Source: Candidatus Brocadia pituitae
GTDB lineage: Bacteria; Planctomycetota; Brocadiia; Brocadiales; Brocadiaceae
NCBI GenBank assembly: GCA_017347445.1
Contig: AP021856.1
Location: 2,426,613 to 2,490,612, forward strand
Reading direction: 5' to 3'
DNA length: 64,000 bases
Positions 3,570 to 27,966 of this stretch are shown here, one piece after another. Numbering within the stretch: the stretch's first letter is position 1; the number at the start of each line of letters is the position of its first letter. The notes below the pieces were generated by a model, which did no database searches, was not told where the DNA came from, and saw nothing but the letters and a program-made list of their open reading frames with translations. Both the position numbers and the translations under genes were made by a program.

Positions 3570-3815
3570 TTATGACTTTTTTATCAACAAGCGATACGTA
3601 TTCTCCACATTTTCTACTTTTACAATTCTATGCCCTTCTTCTTTAATACTTCGCGGAACGCTCCTAATGGGTTCGCCATCATCTAATATCACCTCTAAAA
3701 TCTGGCCTGCATCCATCATTTCCAGCTTTAATTTAGTTTTTACAAAATTAATGGGGCAAAGAACCCCCCTGAGATCAATTTTATCGTCGGGCATAATCTT
3801 TTCTTCTTCTGTCAT
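3570..3815 (-). CDS. tusA: TusA/SirA-family sulfur carrier
   Basis: An 81-residue protein with the TusA signature DLRGVLCPINFVKTK; the single conserved Cys-Pro is the persulfide carrier site. The remainder (ILEVILDDGEPIRSVPRS) follows the family pattern. In the family the protein relays sulfane sulfur between sulfurtransferases, for tRNA thiolation, molybdenum cofactor or dissimilatory sulfur metabolism. Here it ends a minus-strand run of JAMM peptidase, cysteine synthase, DsrE-like protein and sulfite reductase genes. A role as sulfur donor or carrier in cysteine synthesis is therefore plausible but inferred. There is a gap of about 100 bp to the upstream JAMM gene. Confidence 0.9.
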   Translation of the reverse strand: MTEEEKIMPDDKIDLRGVLCPINFVKTKLKLEMMDAGQILEVILDDGEPIRSVPRSIKEEGHRIVKVENVENTYRLLIKKS

Positions 3816-3914
3816 GGTAAGGCCTTAGTCAAGAAATTATTCGGTTATGTCATGCTTACGAGAGTAATAGTCTTTGGTATCTCGTTATTCCTTAATGATA
3901 CCTTCTCTACCCGG

Positions 3915-4331
3915 TTAACACAAATTTATTTCTTCTTCCTGAAACTGTTTTTTTTCTTCATCAAAAACCCACGACCTGCTCACGACCCGTTCTCCGTTTT
4001 CTACCGCTGCAATCAGATATGAATAACCACACCACGCATGCTCAGTATCGAAAGCTGAAGGAATGGCGGGGTGATCAGGATGCGAGTGATATATGCCAAC
4101 GATCTGAAGGCCTTTTCGCGCCGCCTCTTTATCGGCTTTTACAAACTCCCTTCCTTCTATTTCATATCTATCATGATTTCTTTCTGTGTTCGTATTTCGT
4201 AGAGGACGAACTTCAACCACCCTTTTTTCGGTGGTATTCGTGCCAATTAACAGCCCACAACACTCCACAGGGTAGCTCTTTTTTGCTTCACTCTCAACTT
4301 CATAAAGCTTATTCTTATCAATCCACAGCAC
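3915..4331 (-). CDS. JAMM/MPN+ metallopeptidase (Mec-like)
   Basis: 138 residues. The zinc-binding JAMM motif is complete: HSHPDHPAIPSAFD near residues 82-95, with the upstream Glu candidate in the beta strand around residues 25-35. Bacterial stand-alone JAMM proteins beside cysteine synthase (for example Mycobacterium Mec with CysO/CysM) release cysteine from a C-terminally thiocarboxylated carrier. The next gene upstream is a cysteine synthase, supporting that role. No CysO/ThiS-type ubiquitin-like carrier gene is visible in this cluster. The start is a GTG at 4331 preceded by AAGGGG about ten bases away; an internal ATG would truncate the fold. Confidence 0.87.
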   Translation of the reverse strand: MLWIDKNKLYEVESEAKKSYPVECCGLLIGTNTTEKRVVEVRPLRNTNTERNHDRYEIEGREFVKADKEAARKGLQIVGIYHSHPDHPAIPSAFDTEHAWCGYSYLIAAVENGERVVSRSWVFDEEKKQFQEEEINLC

Positions 4332-4368
4332 GCTCTTTAACCCCTTACCAATACAGTCGCTCTTTTAA

Positions 4369-5331
4369 TTATCCACCCGCCCAAAAACTCGTGCTCAAAT
4401 AGCGGTCGCCTCTGTCTGGAAAGACCGTAACAACGGTACCGCTTTCAATTTCATGTGCAACCATTAAGGACGCCACAAGCGCTGCTCCGGAAGAATATCC
4501 AACAAAAAATCCTTCTTCCGCTGCAAGACTTCTCACAGACTCATAGGCGTCTTCTGTCTCTACCGCTATCTTCCTGTCCGGAAAGTGCTCGTCGTAAATA
4601 CCAGGAACTACCGAGGTGGCCATGTGTTTCATGCCCTCCAATCCGTGAATGGGAGTAGCGGGCTCAACAGCAATCACCTGAATATCAGGGTTATATTCCT
4701 TTAAACGCCTGCCGGTACCCATAAGAGTGCCACTCGTACCCAAACACGCAACAAAATGTGTCACGCTACCCGCAGTTTGTTCCCACACCTCCACACCGGT
4801 CGTTTCAAAATGCGCCTTCCAATTGGCTTCATTATTATACTGATCTGCATAAAAATACCGGGAAGGGTTTTCCGTTACAATCCTTTTCGCTTCTGACATG
4901 GCGCCATCAGAACCCAGCAATGGATCGGTAAATATCATGGTTGCCCCAAAGGCACGCACAATCCTCTTCCTTTCTTCACTCACATTTAAGGGCATCACCA
5001 GGGTTACCCGGTATCCTTTCTTTGCACCAATGAGCGCATAGGCGATACCCGTATTTCCGGAAGTGGAGTCTATTATGGTGGTATCTTTCGTTAATTTACC
5101 GGTTTTTTCAGCCTCTTCTATAATCCGCAAAGCAGGGCGGTCCTTAACCGACCCGCCCGGGTTTAACCATTCTGCCTTGACATAAATTCCCACGTCCTTA
5201 TTTCTCAGACCCTCAGCAACCCTGCTAATCTTTAAAAGAGGCGTATTCCCGATTTTATCCAAAATTGAGGTAGTAGGGACATTCTTATGCTGGTATCTCG
5301 TATCCTTTTTCTCTGTCATACGAATTGTCAC
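4369..5331 (-). CDS. cysM: Cysteine synthase (CysM/CysK family, PLP-dependent)
   Basis: 320 residues with the full O-acetylserine sulfhydrylase pattern. The PLP-lysine region is GSVKDRPALRI, the substrate loop is STSGNTGIAYA, the phosphate-binding loop is GTSGTLMGTGRRLKE, and the C-terminal motif is GYSSGAAL. It makes cysteine from activated serine and sulfide or a thiocarboxylated carrier. The adjacent JAMM gene (downstream) and TusA favour the CysM/CysO-type variant, but the sulfur donor cannot be settled by reading. The GTG at 5331 has a GAGG site seven bases upstream; the ATG four codons later (5319) lacks one, so GTG is preferred. Confidence 0.92.
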   Translation of the reverse strand: MTIRMTEKKDTRYQHKNVPTTSILDKIGNTPLLKISRVAEGLRNKDVGIYVKAEWLNPGGSVKDRPALRIIEEAEKTGKLTKDTTIIDSTSGNTGIAYALIGAKKGYRVTLVMPLNVSEERKRIVRAFGATMIFTDPLLGSDGAMSEAKRIVTENPSRYFYADQYNNEANWKAHFETTGVEVWEQTAGSVTHFVACLGTSGTLMGTGRRLKEYNPDIQVIAVEPATPIHGLEGMKHMATSVVPGIYDEHFPDRKIAVETEDAYESVRSLAAEEGFFVGYSSGAALVASLMVAHEIESGTVVTVFPDRGDRYLSTSFWAGG

Positions 5332-5350
5332 TAGGTAACCTCATCTTCCG

Positions 5351-5773
5351 TTATATAAACAACTGTGTTTCCGCACCATCCGCTATTTCCAAAAGTGTCG
5401 TTAATCCCAGGATGTCGTCTACCTTTGTTCGAACCTGCGATTCTTCCAACTCCATTAATTTCACGGCGCCCGTGCATGCATAAACTTTTAGATTCCCCAT
5501 TGCCCTTACATCACGAAGCAATTCTTTGAGTGAAATGGGATGAATCGCTTGCATGCGTTTTAGCAATTTTTCACCCTCTGCACCACATTCCGCAGCCAGT
5601 CTTGCCGGGTCAAACTCTTCATTCACAAATCTTTTCAATGCCCAAAAAAAGAGGAAGATATACGTCTCTCTTCCCATGGAAGCAGCAGTAATAGCCAACG
5701 TAACAATCTGATACAATTTATCGTACGTACCGCTATGTGCAAAGATAACAAATCTTTTCTTGTCTTTCATCAT
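5351..5773 (-). CDS. DsrE/DsrF-like family protein
   Basis: 140 residues resembling the DsrE/DrsE-like sulfur relay fold: an N-terminal beta strand with KKRFVIFAHSGTYDKLYQIVTLA, helix-rich middle, then VRAMGNLKVYACTGAVKLMEL, where the Cys sits where the sulfur-carrying Cys of DsrE/TusD-type proteins is expected. It is eight bases downstream of the sulfite reductase gene and just upstream of cysteine synthase. It could relay sulfur from reduced sulfite to TusA or cysteine synthase (inference). Two consecutive ATG codons (5773, 5770) are both possible starts. Confidence 0.75.
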   Translation of the reverse strand: MMKDKKRFVIFAHSGTYDKLYQIVTLAITAASMGRETYIFLFFWALKRFVNEEFDPARLAAECGAEGEKLLKRMQAIHPISLKELLRDVRAMGNLKVYACTGAVKLMELEESQVRTKVDDILGLTTLLEIADGAETQLFI

Positions 5774-5781
5774 AGCCTGTG

Positions 5782-6672
5782 TCAGTTTTTTATGAAAGTG
5801 CCAACAACATCTTTTTTAAACTTTTCCAAACCTACCCGGGCTATACATGAACCGATTCTTTCCTTGGGCTTGCCATGCTCCTTATACCATTTTACGGTTG
5901 CGTCAACAAAATCATTCACCTTATTATCAGGTAAAAAATTTAACACCTCATCGGCCTCCCGCGGGTGTCTTCCATGTTTTCCACCGGTACGCACCAGCCA
6001 ACCCTTTTTCTTGTCTTTCCATGCATCCGTCGGGCACGCCCGAATACAGTCCCCACAATACACACATTTGGATTCATCAAACACCGGCCTGCCTTCTTTA
6101 TCTGAGATAATTGCACCTTCCTGACAGGCCTTGGCACACAAAGTGCATCCATTGCACAAATCCTTGCCCCATACCGGATAAACCACCCCCTGAAAACCCA
6201 GATCCATTTCCCGAGTCCTTGTGCAATCGATTGGACAACCAGAAAATCCGATCTTAAACTTATGGGGACATGAAATGCCAAAAAACTTTTCGTCAACCTC
6301 TAACGCCTTCGATTGCGTGTCCATAATCCCATTGGGATTATATTCACAGCCTCCGCATGCCGTAGGCACCCTGACTCTCGGACCACAGGAAGCAACCTTT
6401 TGCCCCACGGCTGCCAATTCCTTTATAACCGCGTCAAAATCATCAATATGTACGCCGACAATCTCCACTGATTGCCTGAAACTTAAGTGACAAAATCCCA
6501 TCCTGCTATATTTTTTTGCAACCTCTGCAATCTTCAACATTCTATCGGGTGTAATACGTCCACCCGGCACCTTTAACCGTACGGTAAAAAGGTCCCGCTG
6601 ATTCTGCTTGATAAAACCGCCAGACTTTAATTCATTCAGGTCTACTCTTTGTGTCCCTGTCTTTTCAGCCAT
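5782..6672 (-). CDS. Small siroheme/4Fe-4S sulfite (or nitrite) reductase with inserted ferredoxin domain
   Basis: 296 residues. An N-terminal ferredoxin-like half (residues about 15-80) precedes the siroheme-4Fe-4S motif, with cysteines in TACGGCEYNP and GFSGCPIDC. A two-cluster ferredoxin insert follows (CNGCTLCAKACQEGAI and CVYCGDCIRACP). This is the layout of anaerobic AsrC/DsrAB-like small reductases. The start ATG has AGGAG about five bases upstream. It is followed by DsrE-like, cysteine synthase, JAMM and TusA genes, and siroheme synthase is just upstream, so assimilatory sulfite reduction for cysteine is the most economical reading. Nitrite as substrate is an alternative in this nitrogen-cycling organism. 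Confidence 0.85.
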   Translation of the reverse strand: MAEKTGTQRVDLNELKSGGFIKQNQRDLFTVRLKVPGGRITPDRMLKIAEVAKKYSRMGFCHLSFRQSVEIVGVHIDDFDAVIKELAAVGQKVASCGPRVRVPTACGGCEYNPNGIMDTQSKALEVDEKFFGISCPHKFKIGFSGCPIDCTRTREMDLGFQGVVYPVWGKDLCNGCTLCAKACQEGAIISDKEGRPVFDESKCVYCGDCIRACPTDAWKDKKKGWLVRTGGKHGRHPREADEVLNFLPDNKVNDFVDATVKWYKEHGKPKERIGSCIARVGLEKFKKDVVGTFIKN

Positions 6673-6830: not shown

Positions 6831-7472
6831 TTATTTGCTTGCGGATATTTTTTCGAAGATGATCTCCCCTATCTTCTTCTTCGCTTCCGGGACACCTTTC
6901 TGCTTTATTATTTCAAGGATATCAGGTTCTGCAATACGCTGCAGGATATCACGCCTTATTGATTCATTCTTTATTTCTGAAAGCATCTTTTGGCGCATCT
7001 CTGATAAGAGTTTTGTAAATTCGTCATATTCCTCACCAAAGTGCTGTTCCAGGTTTTCTCTTATATTCCTGGCCAAGGCCGGACTTGCCCCACCCGTTGA
7101 GATGCTGATGCAAAGATTGCCTCGCATAACGGATGCTGGCACAATGAAGGAACACAATTCCGGTTTATCGACAACATTCACTAAGATTCCGCTCTCAATA
7201 GCGTCACGATAAACCTTTTTGTTCACCACTCCATCGTCCGTAGAGGCAATCACAAGAGCCGCTCCCTTCAGGATAGCCGTGTCATATTTCTGTTGAATCC
7301 GTTCCACACCCGTCTCTCCTTCCAGTTCTGGACAAAAGTCAGGCGACACTACGGTAACTTTTGCGCCCGCCTCTTTCAGGCTGCACACCTTGCGCCACGC
7401 AACATTGCCACCACCCACCACCACACATTTTTTGCCCTGAATATTCAGGAATATCGGATAATATTTTGCCAT
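6831..7472 (-). CDS. Precorrin-2 dehydrogenase / sirohydrochlorin ferrochelatase (Met8/CysG N-terminal type)
   Basis: 213 residues from the ATG at 7472. It begins MAKYYPIFLNIQGKKCVVVGGG, the classic N-terminus with the NAD-binding GGGNVA loop. The middle contains ASTDDGVVNKKVYRDA and ISTGGASPALARNIRE, both diagnostic. It completes siroheme, the cofactor of the sulfite reductase encoded next. A longer reading frame starting at 7502 would overlap the end of lysA and adds no family residues, so the shorter start is chosen. No uroporphyrinogen methyltransferase domain is attached. Confidence 0.92.
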   Translation of the reverse strand: MAKYYPIFLNIQGKKCVVVGGGNVAWRKVCSLKEAGAKVTVVSPDFCPELEGETGVERIQQKYDTAILKGAALVIASTDDGVVNKKVYRDAIESGILVNVVDKPELCSFIVPASVMRGNLCISISTGGASPALARNIRENLEQHFGEEYDEFTKLLSEMRQKMLSEIKNESIRRDILQRIAEPDILEIIKQKGVPEAKKKIGEIIFEKISASK

Positions 7473-7485
7473 CGTATTGTAATTA

Positions 7486-8775
7486 CTACGTAAAAATTTC
7501 ACCTTTCACTAAATCATCATACGTCTCCCGTTGTCTGACAATATGATATTGATCTCCATCTACCAGCACCTCACAGGGACGCGGGCGGGAATTGTACTGG
7601 GAACTCATCGAAAAACCATACGCACCGGCACTGAATATTGCCAATAAATCCCCTTCCCCGACTTTCGGTAACGCCCTACCGGCGGCAAAGACATCGCTGC
7701 TTTCACATACCGGGCCCACAATATCCACCAGTTCCATTCCCTTTTTTATCGCCGGTTTTTCAGGATCTTCAGTCTTCGGCATGGATATACCCGTGTCCAC
7801 CGGCCATATCCGGTGAAAGGCGTCATACAAGGCTGGCCGTAGTAAATCATTCATAGCTGCATCGCAAATAACAAACTTTTTACCATATAGGGTCTCTTTC
7901 GTATACGTCACCCTGGTAACCAGGATCCCGGAATTCCCGATAATATACCTGCCAGGTTCCATAATAAGATTGCATTGCATCTCTTTCACCAGGGGAAGAA
8001 TTTCCGATGCGTAATCCTTTGGCTGCAATACTGCTTCACCCGTGTATGAAATACAATACCCACCCCCTATGTTCATGTATTCGATATCCAGCCCCACCCC
8101 CCTGCACTTTTCAATGAGCTTTACGATCTTCCGGAGGGAGCTCACATAAGGATCAACCGTATAAATGGGGGAACCCAAATGCACGTGCAATCCGCACAGT
8201 TCGATGCTGCCATATTGTGCTGACTGTTTAATAAGTCCTTCGGCCTCAGTAAAATCAATGCCGAACTTATTCTCCCTCTTCCCCGTTGTCGTCTTTGCAT
8301 GGGTCTTTGCATCAATGTCAGGATTGATTCGCAAAGCCACCTTTGCCACCTTGCCTGCCTCTTTTGCCAATTGATTAATATGGTTGAGTTCCGCCTGGGA
8401 TTCCACATTAAACATAAAGATATCGTTCTCAAGGGCATATTGTATCTCCCTGTCCGTTTTCCCTACACCTGCAAAAACAATCTTTGAAGGATCACCGCCG
8501 GCCTTGATTACCCGGAAAAGCTCACCTCCGGAAACCACATCAAAACCCGACCCCACCTCCGCCAATATTTTACAAACAGAGAGGTTGGAATTAGACTTCA
8601 CGGAAAAACAGATCAAGTTATCGACATCTTCGAAGGCTGTCCTGAGCTCATGGTAACGGGCTAAAATCGCATTTTTGCTATAGATATAAGCCGGAGTTCC
8701 CACCTCTGAGATAATATCTTCTATCTTTATCTTTTCGCAAAAGAGCGCCTTGTCCCGGTATTCAAATGTATCCAT
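7486..8775 (-). CDS. lysA: Diaminopimelate decarboxylase
   Basis: 429 residues, the usual length for LysA. The PLP-lysine lies in CFSVKSNSNL (residues about 55-65); HVHLGSPI, NIGGGYCI, EPGRYIIGNSGIL, VGPVCESSD and GAYGFSMSSQYNSRPRP are all family landmarks. It converts meso-diaminopimelate to lysine. It lies only a few bases downstream of argH and overlaps or abuts the siroheme synthase start region, so the three are probably cotranscribed. An AAAGGG sits about ten bases before the ATG. Confidence 0.97.
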   Translation of the reverse strand: MDTFEYRDKALFCEKIKIEDIISEVGTPAYIYSKNAILARYHELRTAFEDVDNLICFSVKSNSNLSVCKILAEVGSGFDVVSGGELFRVIKAGGDPSKIVFAGVGKTDREIQYALENDIFMFNVESQAELNHINQLAKEAGKVAKVALRINPDIDAKTHAKTTTGKRENKFGIDFTEAEGLIKQSAQYGSIELCGLHVHLGSPIYTVDPYVSSLRKIVKLIEKCRGVGLDIEYMNIGGGYCISYTGEAVLQPKDYASEILPLVKEMQCNLIMEPGRYIIGNSGILVTRVTYTKETLYGKKFVICDAAMNDLLRPALYDAFHRIWPVDTGISMPKTEDPEKPAIKKGMELVDIVGPVCESSDVFAAGRALPKVGEGDLLAIFSAGAYGFSMSSQYNSRPRPCEVLVDGDQYHIVRQRETYDDLVKGEIFT

Positions 8776-20004: not shown

Positions 20005-21975
20005 ATGCGTAAAACAATAGTATTGTCGGTCTTTACCATTATTGCTGCTTTTCTCTTTTCTTTATCAGGCTGTCAATACAAAACCCTGTCTGAAAGGGAA
20101 AACGCCCAATTGATGTCTGAACTCCCTGCCTCATCATCTGAGGCAGACGATCTGCTCATTGTTGATTGCCTCCTTCCCGGCCAGATTCGAAAACTGGGAA
20201 ATATGACTTATCTGACGTCCCGACGTGCCGTCAAAACTACTGCATTAACTTGCAGAATCAGGGGTGGGGAGTATGTTGCCTACGACCGTGCAAATTACGA
20301 AACGGCTGTAAAGGTTTGGTTAGCACAGGCCGAAGGGGGAGACAAGATCGCCCAGACATATGTCGGTGAAATCTACGAAAAGGGCCTGGGGAGAAACCCT
20401 GATTATATCCTTGCAGCCACATGGTACAAAAAGGCCGCTGAACAAGGGTATGCAAGCGCCCAGATCAATCTTGGCCAGCTTTATGAACAAGGTCTGGGCG
20501 TGCAGAAAAACATGGCAGAGGCGGTAAAGTGGTATCGGAAGGCATCGGGAATGGAAGATGCCATAACCATCGACCCTGCCAGCGTTAATGCAGAAACAAA
20601 CAGGAAGTTAGAGGAACTCAGGCAGGAGGTTGATCGCAGAAGAAAGCAGGAAGAGTCGTTGCAAAACCAGATGGAAGAGACACAACAACTCCTGGATCAA
20701 GCCCGGCAGGAATTAAACACAAAGAAAGATGAAGCTGATACCGGGAGCAAAGACAAAGAAATAGCTGAATTGAGGCAAAAGATTATCAAATTAGAGGATG
20801 ATGCTGAAAAAAACAAGGCGCAACTGAAAGTATTTCAACAGGAAGACGAGAAGGCCTCCGGACCAACGATTGAGATGATCGATCCCAGGATTCCTCCGGC
20901 TCAATATCTGGAGACAAGGCAGGTAAGAGGTCTCAAGCTGGAAGCAAAACAGAATGTTTCCAGAGTTACAATACAGCCAGGAACAGAGCGCATTATCAGG
21001 GGAAGGGTGATTGCCCCTTCCGGGTTGCATCTCTTTGCCGTAAATAATAAAGAAGAAAAGCTTGACAAAGAGGGGGCATTTAAAGTATCCGTTAAGGTTC
21101 GGGACGCAGACGTGCCGGTGAGTTTGCGTGCAATTGACAAAAAAGGGAGACAAACTACTCAGTTGCTTATCCTGACCGTGGGTTCTCAACCTTCTCAGGA
21201 GCAGAAACAGAAATTACCGCCCGAATTTTTTGGCAACTATCACGCATTAATCATCGGTAACCAGGAGTATAGGTTTTGGAGTAGTTTGGATACACCCAGG
21301 AAGGATGCAGAAGAAGTAGCAAAGATTTTAAAAACCAAATATGGTTTTAAGACAAAGACCATTCTGAACGCCACACGGTTCGATATCCTGAAGGCCCTTA
21401 GTGAATATCAACGAACTCTGACGGAAAAGGATAATCTTCTTATCTACTATGCGGGTCATGGATATCTGGACACACAGATTGTCCGTGGATATTGGATACC
21501 GGTTGATGGAGAGAAAGAGGTCAGGGCAAACTGGCTGACTACTATTGATATTACTGATATGATCAGTATTATGGAGGCAAGGCATATCCTGCTGGTTTCT
21601 GACTCCTGTTATTCGGGCATGTTAACACGATCGGCAATTCCACCGATTGAATCTGCTGCAGCGGACGAGATACGCCATCAAATGACCCGAATTGCGGCAG
21701 GAAAGAAGTCCCGCACGGTGCTTACTTCCGGTGACTTGCAACCTGTTTTAGACAGCGGCGGTGGCGGCCACTCTGTTTTTGCAAAGGCCTTATTGAATGT
21801 TCTTCTGGAGAATAATGCTATTCTCGAAGGGATGCGATTACATAAGGAGGTTTCTGCCCACCTTACTGGTGCCGCTCCTGCTGTTTATGTGGAGCAGGTT
21901 CCGCAGTATGCACCACTCAAGTATTCCGGGCATGAAATGGGTGAATTTTTCCTGGTTCCTGTCAAAGAGATGTAG
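20005..21975 (+). CDS. Caspase-like (C14) lipoprotein with Sel1 repeats
   Basis: 656 residues. The lipobox LSGC at residues 20-23 marks a lipoprotein. Two Sel1 repeats lie at about 95-182 (YVGEIYEKGLGRNPDYILAA type), a charged coiled coil at about 198-282, a short beta domain at 290-395, and a caspase/metacaspase domain from about 410. The catalytic dyad is visible: His485 in YYAGHGYL and Cys535 in VSDSCYSG. Caspase-fold proteases next to kinases and DUF4384-like domains occur in planctomycetes and cyanobacteria with unknown substrates. Export outside the cytoplasm is notable, since most bacterial caspase homologues act inside. It is followed by the kinase gene. Confidence 0.9.
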   Translation: MRKTIVLSVFTIIAAFLFSLSGCQYKTLSERENAQLMSELPASSSEADDLLIVDCLLPGQIRKLGNMTYLTSRRAVKTTALTCRIRGGEYVAYDRANYETAVKVWLAQAEGGDKIAQTYVGEIYEKGLGRNPDYILAATWYKKAAEQGYASAQINLGQLYEQGLGVQKNMAEAVKWYRKASGMEDAITIDPASVNAETNRKLEELRQEVDRRRKQEESLQNQMEETQQLLDQARQELNTKKDEADTGSKDKEIAELRQKIIKLEDDAEKNKAQLKVFQQEDEKASGPTIEMIDPRIPPAQYLETRQVRGLKLEAKQNVSRVTIQPGTERIIRGRVIAPSGLHLFAVNNKEEKLDKEGAFKVSVKVRDADVPVSLRAIDKKGRQTTQLLILTVGSQPSQEQKQKLPPEFFGNYHALIIGNQEYRFWSSLDTPRKDAEEVAKILKTKYGFKTKTILNATRFDILKALSEYQRTLTEKDNLLIYYAGHGYLDTQIVRGYWIPVDGEKEVRANWLTTIDITDMISIMEARHILLVSDSCYSGMLTRSAIPPIESAAADEIRHQMTRIAAGKKSRTVLTSGDLQPVLDSGGGGHSVFAKALLNVLLENNAILEGMRLHKEVSAHLTGAAPAVYVEQVPQYAPLKYSGHEMGEFFLVPVKEM

Positions 21976-26261: not shown

Positions 26262-27287
26262 CTACATTCCTATATATTTTGCATAAAGCCCCTTTGCAAT
26301 AGCAATATCATTAGTACCTGAGATAATTGAACGTCCATCGGGAAATACGGTTAACTCGCATTTGCCGGTTTTTAATCGTAGTAAAAAACTGTTATAGGAT
26401 ACTTTCCCCACCTTTTCTAACCGTGCTGCGAGTTTCACCAGGTCTAATGCTGATCCGACAGGCGGTAAGATTTGTATGGCATTTCTGCCACACAGGGTGG
26501 TTGTCATTGAGCAGGCATTTTTGGTTAAGAATTCATAATGATGTTGACTGCATGTTATGCAATTGGTCTTATCTTTGATATCTTCTGCAAATATCCTTTT
26601 CATTTCATTACGCCATAGGTCGATTTTCAAGAGTCCTTTGCTCACCGCATCGTAATTGTTCGTAAGAATTTTCAGGGACTCTGCCACTTGAACAGAGGCA
26701 ATCAGGCTGGCGATTGGAGCAATAATTCCTTCGGTATCACAGGTGCCGGCAGTGCCAAATGGCGGAACATTTTCAAGCATGCAGCGGAAACACGGGGTTT
26801 TTGACGGGATAATATTCATCGTTATACCTGTACTTCCTATACAGGCACCATAAATCCATGGTATCTTGTTTTTCACGCAATAATCATTGATAAGGAATCG
26901 CGTCTCAAAGTTATCGGTTCCGTCAACGACAAGATGTGCATCTTGCAGGAGGGTCTCGATATTCGTGGGATTCAGATCAGCTACAAAAGATTCAACCTGA
27001 ATGAGGGAGTTGGTTTTTTGAAGTTTTTTTTGTGCGGCTATTGCCTTTGGAAGGTTTTGTTTAATATCATCTTCGTCGAATAAGGATTGACGCTGAAGAT
27101 TGCTTTCTTCAATGTAATCGCGGTCTATAATTTTTAAACATTTTATACCGCTCCGGACGAGAAGATTTGCTGAAGTGCATCCTAACGCACCGCAGCCTGC
27201 CAGCACAACAGACTTCTCCATCATTGTTTTTTGGCCTTCTTTACCTATGCCATAAAACAATACCTGCCGTGCATAACGAGCAGCCAT
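26262..27287 (-). CDS. ThiF/MoeB/HesA-family adenylyltransferase (E1-like)
   Basis: 341 residues. Begins RYARQVLFYGIGKEGQ and has the ATP-binding AGCGALGCTSANLLVRSG at about 30-47, IIDRDYIEESNLQRQ, and the zinc-binding cysteine pairs FRCML and CITC. The family adenylates the C-terminal Gly of ubiquitin-like sulfur carriers (ThiS, MoaD). No carrier gene is adjacent. The C-terminal 70 residues (TLCGRNAIQILPPVG then TGKCELTVFPDGRSIISGT) match the extension of MoeB-like proteins of anaerobes. It is tightly linked to an unknown Cys-rich gene upstream. It could activate the carrier used by the JAMM/cysteine synthase cluster, 20 kb away (inference). Confidence 0.9.
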   Translation of the reverse strand: MAARYARQVLFYGIGKEGQKTMMEKSVVLAGCGALGCTSANLLVRSGIKCLKIIDRDYIEESNLQRQSLFDEDDIKQNLPKAIAAQKKLQKTNSLIQVESFVADLNPTNIETLLQDAHLVVDGTDNFETRFLINDYCVKNKIPWIYGACIGSTGITMNIIPSKTPCFRCMLENVPPFGTAGTCDTEGIIAPIASLIASVQVAESLKILTNNYDAVSKGLLKIDLWRNEMKRIFAEDIKDKTNCITCSQHHYEFLTKNACSMTTTLCGRNAIQILPPVGSALDLVKLAARLEKVGKVSYNSFLLRLKTGKCELTVFPDGRSIISGTNDIAIAKGLYAKYIGM

Positions 27288-27288
27288 G

Positions 27289-27966
27289 CTAACTTTTTAT
27301 GGTGAAATTACTCAGGCAAGAAGTGTCTCCCGTGGCAAGTGCCTTTTCCCGTTTATATTCGATTTGGGAATTTATTCCTTCACCAAACCCGGCAATCCAT
27401 TCATTTACAATATTGCACATTGTTAAGAAATCTGCCCCTGCGTCTTGCCAATAAGGTTCGTGAACGCAGCTTTCATGATCCCATGAGGTACTTTTTTCAG
27501 ATTCCGCCACCACCTGTGCGCCCCGGTCGCAAGGCATCCCGTCACAGAGGTAATCTCCCATCACCTCAAATGCCTTTGAAGTATTATTGCAATCTAATGG
27601 TGTTAACCCTCTGTTCTTGGTGGATTCTTTTCCACAACTTATACCATGATTATGGGCTGCTTCAGCTGCTATCTTTGCAGCATCATTGAATTTTGCGCAA
27701 AATGCTGCAATCGTTGCCGCTTCTCGCGTTTCTATCTCAATAATGAGGCTCTGTATACCCTGATGAATGGGTTTGTTGGCTAATAATTCTTCAAGGGGTT
27801 TATTTTCGGTTGATTTTGGGTATTTTTTATATACCTGTTCAAGGATTTTGTCTGCCTCTGCACCATATTTCGATTTAAATGCAGAAATAATGGCAGATTC
27901 CCTCCCCTCTGTAGTTTTAATTTTACCATACATCCAATGATGGATTGGCCCTAATACTAGACTCAT
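27289..27966 (-). CDS. Conserved cysteine-rich protein of unknown function
   Basis: 225 residues. GAGGAG lies about seven bases before the ATG. The N-terminal half is helical. The C-terminal half has spaced cysteines (YLCDGMPCDRG, SCVHEPYW, MCNIVNEW) and ends with GDTSCLSNFTI. That pattern (Cys, large aromatic region, GD..C near the end) recalls the L-2-amino-thiazoline-4-carboxylic acid hydrolase-like family, but I cannot confirm it. Its stop codon nearly touches the ThiF-like gene, so the two are probably one operon. Processing a sulfur-containing substrate is a guess. Confidence 0.6.
   Translation of the reverse strand: MSLVLGPIHHWMYGKIKTTEGRESAIISAFKSKYGAEADKILEQVYKKYPKSTENKPLEELLANKPIHQGIQSLIIEIETREAATIAAFCAKFNDAAKIAAEAAHNHGISCGKESTKNRGLTPLDCNNTSKAFEVMGDYLCDGMPCDRGAQVVAESEKSTSWDHESCVHEPYWQDAGADFLTMCNIVNEWIAGFGEGINSQIEYKREKALATGDTSCLSNFTIKS

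Follow-up and report, generated by a model that had tools for sequence, protein, structure and literature searches.

In Candidatus Brocadia pituitae, an anammox bacterium whose complete chromosome of 4.08 Mb is held in one contig, a run of minus-strand genes for the reduction of sulfite and the synthesis of cysteine lies at the left end of the 64 kb stretch of DNA analysed here (hereafter the window). It is likely, judging from the sequences, that this cluster makes up the reductive and pyridoxal phosphate (PLP) half of a protein-thiocarboxylate pathway of sulfur assimilation, and that the CysO carrier and the MoeB-type E1 enzyme of the same pathway are encoded elsewhere in the chromosome. A first-pass annotation of the window had described a compact sulfite-to-cysteine route with TusA, a JAMM peptidase and DsrE in place of a CysO carrier, a description that holds for the gene run itself and fails for the genome as a whole.

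The gene run was confirmed by its coordinates and by Pfam and NCBIfam profiles applied with their cut-offs. The five genes of the annotation (sulfite reductase, DsrE-like protein, cysteine synthase, JAMM peptidase and TusA) lie where it had placed them and score above the Pfam cut-offs, and a siroheme synthase gene stands upstream of them. In minus-strand order the cluster reads:

6831-7502, minus strand: CysG N-terminal domain protein (precorrin-2 dehydrogenase/sirohydrochlorin ferrochelatase); TIGR01470 at 164 bits against a cut-off of 62, Pfam NAD_binding_7 and Sirohm_synth_M.
5782-6672, minus strand: small siroheme sulfite reductase of 296 residues with an inserted 2x[4Fe-4S] ferredoxin module; Pfam NIR_SIR_ferr, NIR_SIR (94.7 bits) and Fer4.
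5351-5773, minus strand: DsrE2-like sulfur relay protein with a cysteine in YACTGAV; Pfam DrsE_2 at 44.9 bits, PDB 2qs7 at E=5e-15.
4369-5331, minus strand: CysM-type cysteine synthase of PLP fold type II; TIGR01136 at 355 bits against a cut-off of 344, TIGR01138 (cysM) at 376 against 394, Pfam PALP at 240.
3915-4331, minus strand: JAMM/MPN+ metallopeptidase, Mec/HcyD-like; Prok-JAB at 85.3 bits, motifs PVECCG and HSHPDHPAIPSAFD.
3570-3815, minus strand: TusA/SirA-family persulfide carrier; Pfam TusA at 78.7 bits against 28.6, motif CPINF.

The gaps between the last five genes are 8, 19, 37 and 99 bp, respectively. The sulfite reductase is 96% identical to its homologue in Ca. Brocadia carolinensis; its top NCBIfam model, sulfite_red_C, scores under the model cut-off, its closest PDB entry is the C-terminal half of the F420-dependent sulfite reductase 7np8 (E=8e-39), and the cysteines of its iron-sulfur clusters are kept among the aligned homologues. 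The CysG protein, whose gene keeps its position upstream of the sulfite reductase in Brocadiales, probably supplies the siroheme. The catalytic residues of the remaining products are intact: the glutamate in PVECCG and the HxH, serine and aspartate residues in HSHPDHPAIPSAFD of the JAMM protein, which has all its zinc ligands, the CPIN of TusA, the YAC of the DsrE2-like protein and, in CysM, the SVKDR that opens the motif SVKDRPAL and holds the catalytic lysine. The older Pfam DsrE model scores just under its cut-off in the DsrE2-like protein, and the JAMM protein is the only one found in the genome. In every aligned homologue the cluster TusA has CPxNF instead of the usual CPxP motif.

Conservation of the cluster, which the annotation had proposed to check, is strong. 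A JAMM gene lies close downstream of the cluster sulfite reductase in 39 of 44 Brocadiales loci, and three of the five exceptions are contig ends. Brocadiaceae keep the neighbourhood argH-lysA-cysG-sulfite reductase-DsrE-CysM-JAMM-TusA-Rieske-gltD, and the loci of Scalindua retain DsrE, JAMM and TusA, with CysM not adjacent. The gene run is thus real and conserved, far beyond what chance would give. Seven Scalindua JAMM proteins (loci L059, L061, L065, L067, L072, L074 and L076) have a hydrophobic C-terminal extension of about 80 residues, which is likely a membrane anchor; a JAMM-carrier fusion, considered for these reading frames of about 230 residues, was rejected, as the extra part is hydrophobic and is not a CysO domain.

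As the annotation had noted, the window holds no gene of the ThiS/MoaD type in a genome-wide Pfam ThiS search. The same search, and with it the look for a small ThiS/MoaD/CysO homologue that had been suggested as a check on the carrier-free route, matched two genes in the chromosome, at 0.29 and 0.94 Mb. One is a thiamine-type ThiS gene adjoining a thiG-like gene; the other, at G000:C1:942232-942519 (1483-1770 of locus L001) and 1.49 Mb from the cluster, encodes a CysO homologue of 95 residues that ends PAIAGG-HS, and its best PDB match is Mycobacterium tuberculosis CysO (3dwg_C, E=4e-25), with the full domain covered. All 14 Brocadiales genomes searched have this homologue. A CysO-type carrier encoded elsewhere is what the annotation itself had named as refuting its carrier-free route. 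The annotation had allowed for TusA or an unlinked carrier as the source of sulfur; the unlinked carrier exists, and TusA is best read as a sulfur relay to the E1 and the carrier and not as a substitute for the latter. A second role of CysO as MoaD is unsupported, because no MoaE match was found in the genome, against 11 of 14 control genomes with one. The end of CysM itself (WAGG) was considered as a hidden Gly-Gly carrier and rejected, since relatives end in WAGV and other sequences.

Two convincing E1-like genes were found in the genome:

26262-27287 of the window, minus strand: MoeB/ThiF-family E1-like protein of 341 residues; PRK12475 at 390 bits.
G000:C1:1611782-1612591 (L003): MoeB-type E1, 0.8 Mb from the cluster.

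The first is the E1-like gene that the annotation had correctly seen 20 kb from the cluster. It is unlikely to act in this pathway, and the MoeB-type protein, which would activate CysO, is the better candidate: when the operon-linked E1 enzymes of relatives are compared with both, the MoeB type gives 364-401 bits and the window gene, which is therefore disfavoured, 109-143 bits. The MoeB-type E1 has no fused rhodanese domain. A rhodanese protein is encoded downstream, and from its hydrophobic N-terminus this protein looks to be exported. In the window (26262-27966) the PRK12475-family E1 gene directly follows a gene for a protein of 225 residues without a Pfam match.

In other lineages the separate parts stand together. 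About 20 loci of Deltaproteobacteria carry thrC2 (a threonine synthase paralogue described below), sulfite reductase, tusA, cysO and a gene for a NIL-domain protein in one run, which often continues with cysM, JAMM and moeB where the contig or locus extends (L088, L092, L103 and L106, for example). The DsrE2-like gene is missing from operons of this type and is a Brocadiales-specific part of the cluster, with its cysteine conserved. Two loci of Omnitrophica (L108 and L115) have the order cysM-sulfite reductase-tusA-thrC2-cysO-moeB-NIL, with a weak JAMM match ahead of it in L115, and cysM, JAMM and cysO adjoin in some other Planctomycetota (L143, L146, L147, L152 and L158). Because these lineages show the parts together, the arrangement in Brocadia appears to be one system in three pieces, namely the window cluster, thrC2-cysO and moeB. 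In a sample of 196 Planctomycetota genomes, to which the counts for this phylum refer throughout, a CysO-type carrier was found in 42 of the 44 genomes with a close JAMM homologue and in 27 of the 152 without (Fisher p 6e-22, uncorrected for shared ancestry).

We infer each chemical step of the pathway from these genes. Siroheme sulfite reductase would turn sulfite into sulfide, and the sulfur would be held as a persulfide on TusA, in Brocadiales also on DsrE, or be used directly as free sulfide; a relay by TusA and DsrE is proposed because of their conserved cysteines. MoeB would adenylate the C-terminal Gly-Gly of CysO, and sulfur transfer would give the thiocarboxylate CysO-COSH, which CysM would join to O-phosphoserine or O-acetylserine to form a CysO-cysteine adduct. 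Release of cysteine from this adduct by the JAMM peptidase, which would regenerate the carrier, is plausible, and ThrC2, encoded beside cysO, is probably a second PLP enzyme served by the same carrier.

As translated, the Gly-Gly of the Brocadia carrier is not terminal, with the two residues HS behind it. Gly-Gly is the terminus in 13 of 62 distinct carriers; the other 49 have a tail or a fusion behind it, most commonly of two residues. Such carriers have to be cleaved behind Gly-Gly before they are activated, as in the HcyS-Ala/HcyD system of Wolinella, and the Brocadia JAMM peptidase probably also trims the HS tail to give the mature carrier. In four Planctomycetota of family f42 (L176-L179) CysO is fused through a linker to a NIL domain, so that Gly-Gly stands in mid-chain as in a ubiquitin-fusion precursor, and a JAMM homologue is present in all four genomes; these fusions imply proteolysis behind Gly-Gly.

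Several observations weigh against a thiocarboxylate route to cysteine in Brocadia. The carrier and the E1 lie far from the cluster, at the distances given above, and are assigned to it in this species through homology alone. Cysteine can already be made from sulfide by way of cysK and cysE, which form an operon of their own (C1:2957200-2958605), the JAMM of Scalindua, without CysM alongside, is evidently not tied to CysM alone, and the cluster CysM lacks the C-terminal extension of M. tuberculosis CysM. Genomes in which no JAMM was found have carriers with such tails as well, so that co-distribution lends no support to trimming by JAMM or to a tail as a marker of JAMM dependence.

Known thiocarboxylate systems account for most of the parts. 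The CysO, E1, CysM and Mec steps have been described in mycobacteria (PMC3227635, PMC12910592). Brocadia resembles M. tuberculosis in its CysO-type carrier with Gly-Gly, its CysM-type PLP enzyme, its Mec-type JAMM and an E1 of the MoeB/MoeZ family, and just as M. tuberculosis has a CysK1 route beside CysM, Brocadia has the parallel cysK-cysE pair. It differs in that its genes fall into three loci, one of which groups sulfite reductase, TusA and DsrE with cysM and JAMM, in that its E1 is without a rhodanese domain and its carrier has a two-residue tail, and in CysM, which besides lacking the extension has a lysine for Arg220 of the M. tuberculosis enzyme. E. coli CysM also has an arginine at that position, which is consequently not diagnostic of O-phosphoserine use. 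Linkage of mec, cysO and cysM, which is typical and not essential, is absent from Brocadia and is present in Deltaproteobacteria and some Planctomycetota.

HcyS, HcyD, HcyF and MetY of Wolinella succinogenes form a thiocarboxylate pathway to methionine. Brocadia shares with it a sulfite reductase, an E1, a carrier with one or more residues behind Gly-Gly, a JAMM peptidase and a PLP enzyme; the PLP enzyme of the Brocadia cluster, however, is CysM, ThrC2 stands beside the carrier, and MetY (PF01053) is absent from the genome. PMC5764234 mentions the protein thiocarboxylate pathway by name. Among gene neighbourhoods, Iyer, Burroughs and Aravind (2006; PMC1779556) defined a class 4c of a ThiS/MoaD carrier, JAB, E1 and cysteine synthase, and a class 4e of a carrier, JAB, rhodanese-less E1, SirA/TusA and sulfite reductase. 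In their survey sulfur-assimilation neighbourhoods with a rhodanese-less E1 always hold SirA/TusA, which they proposed as a stand-in for rhodanese, and the reading of TusA as a relay agrees with this prediction. Operons of Deltaproteobacteria, the four named above among them, conform to class 4e, whereas Brocadia has the same genes split and mixes 4c with 4e; its system is a split, mixed class 4c/4e variant of known thiocarboxylate assimilation, spread over three chromosomal loci. Neither 'threonine synthase' nor 'NIL' has a match in the text of that paper.

The gene directly upstream of cysO, thrC2 (G000:C1:940917-942155; 4918-6156 of locus L126), adjoins it in 11 of 14 Brocadiales, in Deltaproteobacteria and Omnitrophica and in families f42, f48 and f54. 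A true plant-type ThrC1 is encoded elsewhere in the genome (585 bits to Arabidopsis 1e5x). In Planctomycetota ThrC2 scores are sharply bimodal, with at least 455 bits in 38 genomes and 237 in the next best, and all 38 also have CysO (p 8e-22). Where solved threonine synthases show N-SxNxxR-EGQKT, ThrC2 has NVNLRPYYGEGSKT, and PMAGGSL takes the place of the GNxGN-type motif; comparison with the solved enzymes thus finds neither NSxNxxR...GQKT nor GNxGN in ThrC2. In threonine synthases the lost serine, asparagine and arginine bind the phosphate of O-phosphohomoserine. That these changes are retained with little variation across phyla hints at another substrate or acceptor for ThrC2.

We tentatively propose that ThrC2 may be a carrier-dependent homocysteine synthase, which would combine O-phosphohomoserine with the CysO thiocarboxylate, charged by way of sulfite reductase and TusA, with JAMM releasing homocysteine and, in some lineages, NIL sensing methionine. 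The strongest alternative to a pathway aimed at cysteine shares this idea, and although we hold it to be less likely than not it is a serious possibility: the carrier would serve mainly homocysteine, ThrC2 using CysO-COSH together with O-phosphohomoserine, or with another activated homoserine related to it, and JAMM releasing the product, with sulfite reductase and TusA feeding in sulfur, cysteine made by cysK-cysE and CysM as a second user of the carrier. For the upstream steps it is compatible with the thiocarboxylate pathway as set out above. The adjacency of thrC2 and cysO in several lineages, the constant company of CysO, the existence of a true ThrC1 and the loss of the standard motifs all favour it, as does a NIL domain in or fused to the unit, since the NIL domain is reported to bind methionine and to regulate the homocysteine enzyme L-ASST (PMC12068725). 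L-ASST (L-aspartate semialdehyde sulfurtransferase, DUF39/COG1900 with NIL/ferredoxin; PMC5764234, PMC12068725) resembles the CysO unit in having a NIL domain in a sulfur-transfer unit of anaerobes; B. pituitae and every other Brocadiales genome searched lack DUF39 (PF01837) and have ThrC2 and CysO instead.

The distribution of known homocysteine enzymes points the same way. PF01053 (MetB/MetC/MetY) was found at E <= 1e-60 in 182 of the 196 Planctomycetota genomes. The remaining 14 include ten Brocadiales, some with complete genomes, and in B. pituitae, with no match at that threshold, the top match reached just E=1e-10. Both PF01053 and DUF39 are missing from 12 genomes, 11 of which have ThrC2 and CysO (p 4e-8, with most of the genomes from one clade), ten of them anammox and one of family f48. 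A metagenome study of 2019, whose anammox genomes yielded no cystathionine beta-lyase or gamma-synthase, raised the possibility that these bacteria profit from the amino-acid metabolism of others (PMC6714388), and Price et al. (2018; PMC5764234) stated that at least one further homocysteine pathway is still undiscovered. Within Brocadiales PF01053 is patchy, four genomes having one enzyme and ten, including B. pituitae, having none, which suggests gain or loss. On the other side, these four Brocadiales hold both ThrC2 and a PF01053 enzyme, 27 ThrC2 genomes in total have another known route, ThrC2 could instead make threonine or cysteine, and a NIL gene was not found near the thrC2-cysO pair of Brocadia.

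It is unlikely that the cluster works through free sulfide alone, with CysM as an ordinary O-acetylserine sulfhydrylase fed by sulfite reductase and with JAMM, TusA and DsrE employed elsewhere, in tRNA thiolation or de-conjugation. The genome does encode CysE, and CysM is as close to E. coli CysM and other O-acetylserine sulfhydrylases as to M. tuberculosis CysM; but the dedicated cysK-cysE pair already performs sulfide-based synthesis, and the co-occurrence of JAMM with CysO and the one-run operons of relatives with cysO and moeB would be left unexplained. A carrier-free transfer of persulfide sulfur from TusA or DsrE straight to CysM, with JAMM cutting a TusA- or CysM-bound product, would fit the adjacency of tusA and JAMM to cysM and is nevertheless very improbable, as a CysO carrier and an E1 are both encoded in the genome, a persulfide carrier forms no peptide-like bond for JAMM to cleave, and the operons of Deltaproteobacteria hold tusA and cysO together.

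Elsewhere in the window (20005-21975) a caspase-like (Peptidase_C14) domain is combined with Sel1 repeats; genes of the FHA-domain and PP2C-like kinds lie nearby.

The finding corrects the carrier-free reading of the cluster and reveals what is probably a sulfite-to-amino-acid thiocarboxylate system split across three loci in anammox bacteria. If the proposal for ThrC2 is true, this enzyme would represent an unrecognised route to methionine, filling a gap in anammox bacteria that is now read as methionine auxotrophy, and the set of ThrC2, CysO and NIL supplies named genes with which both the anammox methionine gap and the missing homocysteine pathway become testable.

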